Notes: generated by a model from the sequence alone, not told the origin. Positions 2,931 to 40,580 are shown, counted from the first letter of the stretch. The stretch: DNA of 42,471 nt from Deltaproteobacteria bacterium (GCA_019312835.1 JAFDCJ010000245.1:1-42471); one strand, 5' to 3'. Translations and numbers: made by a program.

Positions 2931-3110
2931 GTTTAGTATTTGGTGTTTTGTGTTCAGTGTTTGAAAAACTGCTCTCACAAGCTGTCCTGCTCAATACAAA
3001 ACACGAAACACCAAAAAACTAAAGCTCATGATGTTGTGTTTGGTATCAAAGCATGTTTTGGTATCCGCCGAGTGTTCTACTAAATACCAAACACAACATA
3101 CCAAACACTA
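2931..3110. repeat. Double inverted-repeat element between convergent genes
   Basis: Two consecutive stem-loops made of degenerate words such as TTTGGTGTTTTGTG and ACCAAACAC. Outer pair: left arm 2931-2963, right arm 2993-3023, roughly 25 of 31 positions complementary. Second pair: GTTGTGTTTGGTAT at 3033-3046 pairs perfectly with 3084-3097. The right end reaches the pgi stop codon (3108-3110); the left end is 14 nt after the DHOD-like stop. It could serve as a bidirectional terminator or 3'-end protector for the convergent transcripts, although it lacks G+C-rich stems with U-tracts. Confidence 0.75.
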
Positions 3111-4763
3111 GTTCTTCCGCATCTCCTTGAAGGTATTGATCAGACCATTGGTGGAACCGTCATGGGTGTCTACCGGCTGATCGTCTGACAATTCCGGCTG
3201 TATCTTCCTGGCCAGCTGTTTTCCCAGTTCGACCCCCCACTGGTCGAAGGAATATATATTCCAGATCACACCCTGGACAAATATTTTATGCTCGTACATG
3301 GCAATCAGGCTGCCCAATGTTGCGGGCGTCAGTTTCTTGAACAATATTGAATTGGTGGGAATATTGCCTTCAAAAACTTTATAAGGCGCCAATTTTTTTA
3401 TTTCAGCAGCACTTCGGCCGGCCTGCTTTAACTCCGCCTCTACCTCTTGCCGGGTTTTGCCGTTCATCAGGGCTTCGGTTTGGGCAAAGAAATTTGACAA
3501 CAGAATGGGGTGATGCTCGCCCAGCGGATTGTGGCTCATCGCCGGTGCCAGGAAGTCGGCCGGAATGAGCTGGGTGCCCTGGTGAATCAGCTGATAAAAG
3601 GAATGCTGTCCGTTGGTGCCCGGCTCCCCCCAGATAATGGGACCGGACTGATAGGTCAGCTTGTTGCCGCCTCTGTCTATCGACTTTCCATTGCTTTCCA
3701 TATTGCCCTGCTGAAAATAGGCCGGAAAACGATGCAGGTACTGATCATACGGCAGGATCACTTCTGACTGAGCTCCGAAAAAATTGGTGTACCAGATCCC
3801 AATCAGGGCCAAGAGAACCGGAATGTTATTCGCGAGAGGCTCCGATCTAAAGTGCTGGTCCATGGCATGGGCCCCCTGGAGCAGCTGGGTGAAATTGTCA
3901 AATCCGATATAGCAAGCGATGGACAACCCGATGGCCGACCACAACGAATACCTGCCGCCAACCCAATCCCAGAAGATGAACATATTATCCGGATCGATAC
4001 CGAAGGCGGCAACCGCCTCGGCATTGGTTGAGATAGCGACGAAATGCCGGGCGACGTGGGCCGGCTTTTGAGCGTGATCTAAAAACCAGGTCCTGGCACT
4101 AAGGGCATTGGTCATGGTTTCCTGGGTAGTGAAAGTTTTAGAAGCTACCATGAAGAGCGTTGTTTCCGGATCAAGGCCTTTCAGCGTTTCCGATAGGTGG
4201 GTTCCGTCTATGTTGGAAACAAAATGAACAGACAATTCTTTTTGGCGGTAGGGTCTCAGCGCTTCAGTTACCATGACCGGACCCAGATCGGATCCACCGA
4301 TTCCTACGTTGACGATGTCCGTGATCTTCTTGCCGGTATAACCCCGCCATTGTCCCGAAACTATCTGATCGGAAAAGGTCTTTATCTGTTGCAAAACGGC
4401 GTTTACCTCCGGCATCACGTCCTCACCGTCAACGAAGATGGGCTCATTGATTCTGTTCCTCAGGGCAACATGCAAGACGGCCCGGTTTTCGGTAGCATTT
4501 ATTTTGTCTCCATTGAACATGCTCGCAATGGCCGCTTCGACACCGGTCTCCCGGGCCAGGCCGATCAGAAGTTCCAGCGTTTCTGCCGTTATGCGGTTTT
4601 TGGAACAATCCACCAGGATATCATTGAATTGGAAAGAAAACTTATTAAACCGATCGGGATCTGCGGCAAAAAGATCTCTCATAAGGACGGATTCCATTTC
4701 CTTATGATGATTTGTTAGCTTGCGCCAACTTTGCGTTTGGGTTGGATTGATGTTCTGTAACAT
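3108..4763 (-). CDS. pgi: Glucose-6-phosphate isomerase
   Basis: Interconverts glucose-6-phosphate and fructose-6-phosphate in glycolysis and gluconeogenesis, in the cytoplasm. Length 551 aa is the enterobacterial-type length (E. coli about 549). Visible signatures: [15 protein letters not shown] with the two-SIS-domain phosphate pocket near residue 150, [16 protein letters not shown] near 268 (first family signature), the catalytic Glu region GNMESNGKS near 355, the [14 protein letters not shown] block near 385, and the C-terminal signature [14 protein letters not shown] near 505. The ATG at 4763 has GGGGG about 7 nt upstream. It is a single-gene unit, convergent with the DHOD-like gene; its last codon touches an inverted repeat. 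Nothing suggests truncation. Confidence 0.97.
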
Positions 4764-5051
4764 GTAAAACCCCCGGGTCCGATTTCGGATTGCGGATTTA
4801 TTAGCGGATAATATTCCAGACTCGACTTTTCTGCATCCAAGTCAGATTCTATTTATATATTACTTCTATCAAACTGTAAATTACTTACTTCGGTAAACGA
4901 CATCGCAGCAAATCGGAATGCTACTTTTTGGCATCGTCGGTTTCTGCGAAGCAGGAGGGTGCAGCCGAACCGGGGCAATTGCATCATGCCCGCCGGTTAT
5001 CAAGGAAGGGTTCTGAGCGTTTTCGGATGAGAAGCGAACCCGGATATCAGG

Positions 5052-5489
5052 TTATTTGAGGACTTTTCTCAGGTTGATGAAATTGCTGCGATCAAAACCA
5101 AGGGTTTTGAAAAATGAAAGCAGGTCCGAAGAATCCCAGCGCACCGAAGTATAGACGTTTTCGACACCCTGGGCCCTGTAGTGGTTCAAAATTTCTTCTG
5201 CCAGACTGGCACCGATGCTTTGGCCCATGTAATTGGGGTCCACCCCCAGGGTGGCAATCCAGGCGCTTTTGGGCATTCCAAAACCGGCCGTCAGAATATA
5301 GCTGATCATAAAACCCACAACCTTACCGTCCTGCTCCGCGACGAAGCAGGCCTGGTCTTTGCGTTGGGCATGTTCCTCTACAACGCGCTTGAAATCAGGA
5401 TCCACGGGTTTCATGGTGATGGCCGCATAAATCCGGCTAATCGCTTCCGCATCTTTTGTTTGTAAATGTCTTATTTGAACTTTATCCAC
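5052..5489 (-). CDS. GNAT-family N-acetyltransferase
   Basis: A 145-aa single-domain GNAT protein that transfers an acetyl group from acetyl-CoA to an unknown amine. The fold is evident: beta1-alpha1 (VQIRHLQTKDAEAISRIY), the central strand pair ACFVAEQDGKVVGFMI, and motif A ATLGVDPNYMGQSIGASL, a version of the R/Q-x-x-G-x-G/A pyrophosphate loop (QSIGA), then the C-terminal LLSFFKTLGFDR seen in RimI-like members. Start: GTG at 5489 with GAGAG 8 nt upstream; no ATG gives a better N-terminus. The downstream gap to pgi is about 290 bp. It may form a unit with the small DUF2080 gene 30 bp upstream. Substrate unknown. Confidence 0.88.
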   Translation of the reverse strand: MDKVQIRHLQTKDAEAISRIYAAITMKPVDPDFKRVVEEHAQRKDQACFVAEQDGKVVGFMISYILTAGFGMPKSAWIATLGVDPNYMGQSIGASLAEEILNHYRAQGVENVYTSVRWDSSDLLSFFKTLGFDRSNFINLRKVLK

Positions 5490-39334: not shown

Positions 39335-40396
39335 TTGGCCTCGTGGAATTTCAGAGAAGAATTGAGTCAAGCGGATCGTATTCGAAGATCCTATTACGAA
39401 CTGCTTAGAGACGAGCTGGATCAATTTTTATTGCAGTATGCACTGATTGACTCCTACCATAATTTCGTATCCCAGAAAATTCCGTTCCCCTTTGTGGAGA
39501 AGCGCGAGTTGAAGCCCCGCGCGCGCATACCCGACCAGGAATACGATAGTCAGAATGCTTTCCTGGTCATTTTTGTTGAAGACATTATAACCAGCGAGCA
39601 CAAGAAGTACATGCGCTTTTTCGATGTCAATAAAACCACCAAGACCAATTTGACGCAGTTTAAAACCCTTGCGTTGTCACAAAAATTCGATCGCAATGCC
39701 AAATATCTGGAATCGGTCCATTTTAACAACTTCATCAAACAGCTCCTGCCGGTCGATTATGCGCTTTTGATCCAGCGGGACCCGGTCGGCAAGGCCAAAA
39801 ACCGGTACAGCCTGTCGCATTTCCATGTCCGCATTGACTGGCCCATTGCCGATGCGGCTGAAGATCTAGCCCAGAGTCTGCGCTATATATCCAAGGATCT
39901 ATATGAAAAAGGGGATAAATACGCGGAGGATATTCAAAAGAAGTTTTTTGAATATTATGGTTTGCCGGTGATGGCCGGCGGCAGAAGAACAGCCGCCATT
40001 GTGGCCGCTCAGTACATGAAAAAAATTCCCGGCATAACCACTGTATATGTCGGCAGCAGTGAAACGCGGTCCCTTATTCGGATTTCTGAAAGGGGGGTGT
40101 CCAAGTCGGCTTTAATGAAGTTTTCTCCTAAAGAAGTGGAACAAATTGCCGAGACCACGGGCCTGGCACCTCAAACCTTCAAGAAGAATTATGTCGTTGC
40201 CCGGCAAAAAAAAGATTGCGTCTGTATTTTCCAGGCAACCTATGCGCGCACATCACATTCCCGGCCTTCGGAAGACGGCAAATTACGCGACATCATAACC
40301 GACCTGTACTGGCTGACCGTCGGCGAGCAGCATATCCTGCCAAAACCCAATATCTGGAAATATCCACCGCTGCCAATAAACATCATATACACTTAG
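39335..40396 (+). CDS. Unrecognised 353-aa soluble protein
   Basis: 353 residues, no signal peptide, no membrane helix, no motif I can place. Balanced composition, rich in Lys, Tyr and Phe. Features: an N-terminal helical part (residues 1-55), ARIPDQEYDSQNAFLVIFVE near 75, a strand-rich centre (YALLIQRDPVGKAKNRYSLS), and a segment GGRRTAAIVAAQYMKKIPGI near 220 that resembles a small nucleotide-fold helix but lacks a Walker motif. A CVCIF pair is near 299. Start: TTG 39335 with AGGAG 6 nt upstream; no ATG fits as well. Flanked by a repeat-rich gap and, convergently, by PBP1A. Gene is real by length and ribosome-binding site; function unknown. Confidence 0.7.
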   Translation: MASWNFREELSQADRIRRSYYELLRDELDQFLLQYALIDSYHNFVSQKIPFPFVEKRELKPRARIPDQEYDSQNAFLVIFVEDIITSEHKKYMRFFDVNKTTKTNLTQFKTLALSQKFDRNAKYLESVHFNNFIKQLLPVDYALLIQRDPVGKAKNRYSLSHFHVRIDWPIADAAEDLAQSLRYISKDLYEKGDKYAEDIQKKFFEYYGLPVMAGGRRTAAIVAAQYMKKIPGITTVYVGSSETRSLIRISERGVSKSALMKFSPKEVEQIAETTGLAPQTFKKNYVVARQKKDCVCIFQATYARTSHSRPSEDGKLRDIITDLYWLTVGEQHILPKPNIWKYPPLPINIIYT

Positions 40397-40448
40397 ATAA
40401 GTGCTCATCTTAATTATTCGCGCCATATCGCTGATGGTTCAAATTTAT

Positions 40449-40580
40449 AAAATTCCAAGCACCAATAAACAAATAAAAAACAATATCCAAATTCGAATCA
40501 CCGATGACCCAAACATTTTTGGAATTTGAGTCATTGAATTTTGGGATTTATTTGGGATTTGTGTTTTGTGATTTGGAAAT
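40449..40580. repeat. TGGTGCTTG-family element between convergent genes
   Basis: Left arm 40449-40518 (ATTCCAAGCACCAATAAACA, CAATATCCAAATTCGAATCA, ATGACCCAAAC) and right arm 40519-40580 (TTTTTGGAATTTGAGTCATT, GGGATTTATTTGGGATTTGT). The loop is nearly absent. Same words as the elements at 8518, 16560 and 29724. Sits between the unknown 353-aa gene and PBP1A. Confidence 0.78.

Follow-up and report, generated by a model that had tools for sequence, protein, structure and literature searches.

Why should intergenic gaps along one stretch of bacterial DNA hold imperfect inverted repeats that share a layout more than a sequence? The stretch in question is a window of 42,471 nt, contig C245 of a 5.99-Mb, 558-contig draft genome whose closest named relatives are Desulfobacterales MAGs, including a Desulfosarcina sp. 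MAG (L052) and the Olavius-associated Delta 1 symbiont (L053). An earlier note on this DNA listed 13 such sites, each with arms made of tandem copies of a short word, and ascribed them either to hairpin-templated repeat growth or to selection for structure at mRNA 3' ends. In this study, we argue that nine of the 13 sites are probably intergenic, ORF-less copies of a mobile-looking class of the intervening-sequence (IVS)/S23 type, whose full-length members encode an S23 protein in the loop and whose words drift while the layout is kept. The four remaining sites, which carry the word CAAATTT, are a separate, ordinary repeat family of like layout for which an S23 partner was not found.

Sequences and Controls

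Genes were called with a codon model in the window and in another 511 kb taken from other contigs of this genome. The genome sample comprised 554 kb and was in part biased toward repeat-bearing contigs; the density of tandem inverted repeats is 4.8 per 100 kb in the unbiased 251 kb and 7.9 per 100 kb in the whole sample. Dinucleotide-shuffled gaps served as the control for gaps, and alignment scores between elements were read against a shuffled 99% level of 26. Searches of the window gave no Rfam match and no tRNA.

A Shared Layout of Tandem Heptamers in Inverted Arms

Tandem stretches at a lag of 7 nt occur 33 times in 116 kb of gaps, three times in 442 kb of coding DNA, and never in shuffled gaps; 7 nt is thus the specific period, beside minor peaks at lags 8 and 9 and at the multiple 14. 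Of 282 gaps, 70 contain a self-inverted repeat scoring at least 36, where dinucleotide shuffles predict 2.4; at a score of at least 44 the figures are 40 and none. These counts also take in REP, terminator and other palindromes. Tandem arms are present in 47 of the 123 gaps with an inverted repeat scoring at least 28. Conversely, 56 of 84 tandem stretches have a nearby inverted partner (score of at least 24), where 3.5 would be expected from the surroundings of other elements, and six have a nearby partner in direct orientation. The periodicity, the excess over shuffles and the inverted partners together establish that the layout is real, and the earlier claim of a shared inverted, tandem-armed architecture thus stands far above what shuffled gaps give.

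Folding against shuffled gaps bore this out for a part of the sites. In eight of the 13 gaps (2931, 8518, 14304, 15351, 24400, 25491, 26481 and 29690), one strand or both give a fold z score no higher than -2.5. The score is weaker at 22814, where z is about -1.4 and yet the arms are 91% complementary. It lies at about zero at 5966, a short degenerate hairpin, and near zero at 16560, where the fold is not significant and the left arm is mostly missing, as well as at 31320 and 40449, where the folded gaps are long or degenerate.

The further claim that the word differs by element is only partly right and goes too far: several words exist, but the 13 sites reduce to seven families, some of whose members align together. 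The sites at 8518, 16560, 29690 and 40449 align mutually with scores of 42-66 and form one ordinary family with arms of about 60 bp (CAAATTT), while the other nine fall into six word families, among them GGTTCAG (24400, 25491 and 31320, scores 31-35) and GGAATGC (5966 and 14304, score 44). The words are multi-copy: genome-wide, the pattern GGTTCAGGGTTCAGGGTT alone has 263 matches at no more than two mismatches, against one for its reversed control. Copy-number extrapolations are rough because they use loose 5-mismatch matching, at which the counts of GTGTTTG and GACAGAA are not clearly above those of shuffled words.

Elements of the window. Paired z values are given where both were noted; a point marks a feature listed without strand.
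Element	Position	Strand	Evidence and remarks	S23 counterpart
GTGTTTG/GTATTTG-word element	2931..3106	.	two adjacent inverted repeats, 2932-2957/2990-3015 and 3031-3046/3084-3099; fold z -6.6/-4.2	L161, same genome (arms, score 55 vs 24 shuffled)
GGAATGC-word element, short, degenerate	5966..6037	.	arm 5968-5995, weak partner ~6012-6037	L179 (score 45)
CAAATTT-family element, ~60-bp arms	8515..8725	.	alignment; z -4.0 on - strand
GACAGAA tandem heptamers, 5.9 copies	14306..14346	+	word as published for the Coxiella 23S IVS (GACAGAT/GACAGAA)
GGAATGC/GGAAGTC-word inverted repeat	14352..14439	.	z -3.0/-3.9	L179
AGGTTTC/AGGTGTC-word inverted repeat	15350..15542	.	arms 92-96% complementary; z -2.8/-4.4	L192 (score 57)
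CAAATTT-family element, left arm largely lost	16556..16660	.	score 66 vs 8518
GCCTAAAAT (9-mer) inverted repeat	22812..22956	.	starts <=5 nt from a stop codon
GGTTCAG-word inverted repeat	24401..24484	.	between stop and next start codon	L162, L169
GGTTCAG-word inverted repeat	25491..25587	.	begins directly after stop codon	L162, L169, L194
GTTGCGG-word inverted repeat	26480..26553	.	fold	L167, L196
CAAATTT-family element	29722..29945	.	orthologous site keeps right arm in L051, both arms in L053
GGTTCAG-word element, ~237 bp	31314..31550	.		L169, L162 (scores 57, 52)
CAAATTT-family element	40446..40585	.	inverted-repeat score and alignment to family

An unrelated, REP-like sequence lies at 8622-8648, in the loop of the first CAAATTT element.

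The Arms Recur Around S23 Genes

S23 (PF05635) is the protein family that 23S rRNA IVSs encode. The window's genome contains 12 matches to it, most of them between inverted arms made of tandem repeats. In a survey of the best-scoring S23 matches, which is not a random set, flanking inverted repeats scoring at least 26 were found around 51 of 65 S23 genes (78%) as opposed to one of 103 control genes (1%; Fisher 7e-29). Such repeats also flank 19 of 29 S23 genes from other phyla, in a survey whose groups include Verrucomicrobia, Bryobacterales (Acidobacteriota), Fibrobacteres, Phycisphaerae, Poribacteria, Victivallis and Hydrogenedentota. All six of the window's non-CAAATTT words flank an S23 gene in the same genome or in a relative, with scores of 41-57 against at most 28 for shuffled sequence; in L055, for example, arms with the GCCTAAAAT word enclose a PF05635 gene, at an orthologous junction other than that of the element at 22812. 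The S23 ORF itself is absent from every element of the window, though other copies that carry these words have it. Nine sites, of which 5966 is degenerate, have inverted arms of tandem 7-9-mers with a word that also occurs in an S23-encoding copy. Around the CAAATTT family the picture differs: no S23 gene was found between such arms, no partner ORF was found, and the match to S23 arms is weak or absent.

A second common trait is polarity. G outnumbers C in the left arm of 65 of 70 S23 elements, and ORF-less tandem elements show the same bias (41 with G>C against 4 with C>G), whereas non-tandem inverted repeats divide 42 to 29. Because the arms are inverted copies, this polarity is identical read on either strand. 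The arms are degenerate tandem repeats of ~7-mers in which the 5' arm is usually rich in G whichever strand is read, and the word identifies the element family. Among Desulfobacterota, 18 S23-free genomes have no tandem inverted repeats in 266 kb and 20 S23-rich genomes have seven in 268 kb, a contrast that is statistically modest (p about 0.03-0.05).

The suspicion in the earlier note that something unusual underlies the pattern was well placed, in that an element class with tandem-heptamer arms tied to S23 is involved. Could a more familiar class suffice? If the elements were MITEs or REPs moved by a conventional transposase, for instance a Y1 enzyme associated with REPs, they would likewise be multi-copy, intergenic and inverted, and the genome has three Y1_Tnp genes. 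We consider this very unlikely, since the flanks of all three genes lack such arms, the arms are tandem 7-mers with family-specific words, the enclosed gene is S23, and target-site duplication was not seen. On the same inspection of the three Y1_Tnp genes, mobilisation by a RAYT was not supported.

Placement at Gene Junctions

Tandem-armed elements lie mostly in co-directional gaps (39 of 47), at a median of 23 nt downstream of the upstream stop codon. Convergent gaps are not enriched, holding 4 of the 47 elements while making up 40 of all 282 gaps. The proposal of selection at mRNA 3' ends therefore found no backing here, and the placement agrees better with tolerated insertion at gene junctions than with terminators. 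A broader version, in which selection keeps the hairpins for gene regulation, as terminators, RNase III sites or stabilisers at mRNA 3' ends or in operon processing, would account for the strong folding at eight sites and for the position just after upstream stops; we regard it as highly improbable, given the lack of enrichment in convergent gaps and the turnover described below, by which presence or word is not conserved at seven of nine orthologous junctions.

Turnover Between Species

In congeners, most orthologous junctions lack an element or bear a different word; the same word is kept at two of the nine compared (29690 and 31320). The junction 24396/24495 illustrates the range: it holds GGTTCAG in the window, AACGGGC in L051, AATGACTAA in L053, and AAAATGCCT together with an S23 gene in L055, with no element in L052, L054, L056, L059 and L063. 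The 22812 site is empty in L052 and L054, where the genes overlap, and in L053 the gaps corresponding to 14304 and 16560 measure 12 nt and 32 nt. An exact empty site exists at 31320 in the congener L051, where the sequence is shorter by about 237 bp and aligns on both flanks; since L053 carries a GGTTCAG element at this site, loss in L051 and repeated insertion are both possible. No target-site duplication is evident at the empty sites examined. The comparison of the same gaps in relatives, suggested in the earlier note, thus revealed both gain or loss and change of word.

Word, Protein and the Matching of Arms

Within the genus, S23 proteins from elements with the same word are 67-87% identical, as opposed to a mean of 28% for different words (permutation p<0.0002; words assigned by hand at 27 loci). 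One pair with different words, L169/L195, gives an identity of 1.0, which most likely arose because a partial sequence was aligned with free end gaps. Linkage of the same word to the same S23 is likewise expected under plain descent of whole elements. Among distant S23 proteins, word and protein are uncorrelated (Mantel test), and the inverted 7-mer layout and arm polarity persist across the elements that bear them. Taken together, the linkage within the genus and the lack of correlation at a distance indicate that the word acts as the label of a family and can change in the long run, with the layout kept, which confirms that these elements share layout more than sequence.

Within one element, the arms match more closely than do arms of different elements with the same word (28.8 vs 19.4), as recomputed on elements picked by tandem arms alone because a set picked by inverted repeats is biased by that selection. 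Such matching, the 7-nt period, and the Nostoc trnL P6b stem, in which 7-nt repeats undergo word replacement in place (PMC4476775), are what one would expect if tandem-repeat hairpins grew in place by polymerase slippage and quasi-palindrome correction, with no mobile element and with S23 genes merely falling in. We judge this account unlikely: every non-CAAATTT word of the window is found again next to S23 genes elsewhere, word and S23 subtype go together across species, and empty sites bear no trace of a stem. Since the words are inherited as families, each linked with an S23 subtype, independent growth at each site is not needed for the distribution, although hairpin-templated growth, as the earlier note had it, could nonetheless account for the lengthening and continued matching of the arms.

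Proposed Model

The closest documented case is the Coxiella IVS, which combines an S23 ORF with tandem heptamers (GACAGAT/GACAGAA) whose number differs among strains and with an RNase III site located at the first of them. Its features, together with the occurrence of the same word at 14306, lead us to propose an S23-dependent spread of ORF-less copies along the following lines:

(i) S23 has a predicted structure (pLDDT 95) that matches the fold of 2GSC and of the Avd proteins 4DWL and 8UB7. As an Avd-like four-helix bundle, with a solved relative that is pentameric, it would be the mobility factor and would act in trans, spreading ORF-less copies. The small number of S23 genes (12) against hundreds of arms weighs against the model and leaves action in trans an inference.

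(ii) Insertion at stop/start junctions would be tolerated because RNase III could cut the hairpin out of the transcript, as in the rRNA IVS.

(iii) Replication slippage in 7-nt steps, combined with arm-to-arm correction, would let the word drift and keep the arms self-complementary.

The kinship with IVSs rests on protein family, architecture and literature, given that none of 40 S23 loci lies in rRNA by Rfam, that the window's elements are all intergenic, and that no 23S gene was found in eight congeneric assemblies. More broadly and more tentatively, we put forward as a possibility falling somewhat short of even that PF05635/S23 proteins throughout bacteria mark a large, unrecognised superfamily of mobile elements, in which an Avd-like protein ring would recognise the family-specific arm word of about 7 nt, either as such or folded into a hairpin; rRNA IVSs would be just those members that landed in rRNA and the abundant intergenic hairpins their ORF-less offspring, with no reverse transcriptase needed.

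IVSs, S23 and the resemblance of S23 to Avd were already known. What is new is that free-standing S23 genes of several phyla and abundant ORF-less hairpins are linked through tandem-heptamer arms, a link for which we found no paper among the open-licence papers searched. Through it, heptamer repeats so far listed without explanation become an element class open to testing, and S23 acquires a candidate substrate in its own arms; it would also explain why hairpins with unlike words have one layout in common.

Comparison with Known Systems

Where 23S rRNA IVSs come from, how they move and what S23 does are long-standing questions (PMC4990558). Like the elements described here, the IVSs of Coxiella and Leptospira are stem-loops with complementary ends that form a long stem (PMC4990558), and the published IVS with its S23 ORF and heptamers is, by this analogy, the same kind of element residing in rRNA. 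In the ORF-bearing subset of IVSs the S23 ORF lies in the loop. The present elements are mostly ORF-less, all those of the window among them, and S23 sits in other copies with the same word; the heptamers of the Coxiella stem include the word found at 14306. An IVS lies within an rRNA gene and is cut out by RNase III, while the present elements are intergenic, have many words and many copies per genome, and may, by analogy, be processed by RNase III.

The protein offers a parallel of its own. Avd, of diversity-generating retroelements, has the four-helix-bundle fold predicted for S23 (TM about 0.7 to 4DWL and 8UB7), a resemblance noted earlier (PMC10053308). Avd partners a reverse transcriptase; no RVT_1 was found in this draft genome or in the drafts of four congeners (G001, G002, G005 and G007), and copying driven by such an enzyme is accordingly unsupported as a necessity.

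Classes 1-3 of the repeats of Geobacter metallireducens are closely similar, being multicopy tandem 7/8-mers that occur in pairs, one on each strand, with variable spacing; they have other words and were described as regulator sites, and the link to S23 was not drawn (PMC2700814). By the same token, the elements studied here could be binding sites of a global nucleoid regulator, a reading that the shared layout favours and that we find scarcely credible, because the words vary among families and track the S23 protein within a genus rather than a host regulator, the sites turn over between species, and Geobacteraceae S23 genes (L237, L257) bear the same kind of arms.

The Nostoc trnL intron likewise has a complementary stem of 7-nt repeats whose class is replaced in place, although that stem lies inside a group I intron and has no S23 gene (PMC4476775). 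REP/REPIN and MITE elements are, as here, short, intergenic, multicopy and palindromic, and differ in having a conserved sequence and a transposase where these elements have a conserved layout and a variable word. Finally, the TAACTGA repeats of Beggiatoaceae and the heptamer arrays of cyanobacteria are intergenic tandem heptamers as well, but they are direct repeats of one word that almost never form inverted pairs (PMC4679880), in contrast to the inverted arms described here.

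Accompanying repeats and reading frames

The start listed for the reading frame at window position 5979 falls within the GGAATGC repeat, and the true start probably lies near 6050. Downstream of the thiolase gene, a conserved small frame encodes a membrane-like product of 52 aa beginning MSVSRKLGILVFF, which was found too in the congener (L051), the Olavius-associated Delta 1 symbiont relative (L053) and a further locus, L057.

A REP-like repeat has two copies in the window, one of them inside the loop of the 8518 element (CAAATTT family). In L060 and L061 the loop of a CAAATTT element encloses a GAACATC-word hairpin, at two different junctions. 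The window's genome also carries a distinct group of near-palindromes without tandem arms.

Coordinates of the features (L, loci in this genome or in relatives)
Feature	Location
52-aa frame	window 31680-31838
Terminator-like hairpin, AAAAAGGGTGCCAC/GTGGCACCCTTTTT	window 11897-11935
REP-like repeat, GTCATTCC...CCGGAATCCAG	window 8622-8648; 39029-39105
REP family TGTGGGAGCGGCTTCCAGCCGCGA, window's genome	L034:4197-4258; L048:839-909; L145:11035-11105
CAAATTT element with nested GAACATC hairpin	L060:7929-8233; L061:9433-9801
Near-palindromes, 140-165 bp	L046:1414-1576; L036:12523-12666; L156:7818-7968; L159:5565-5707; L146:1929-2080
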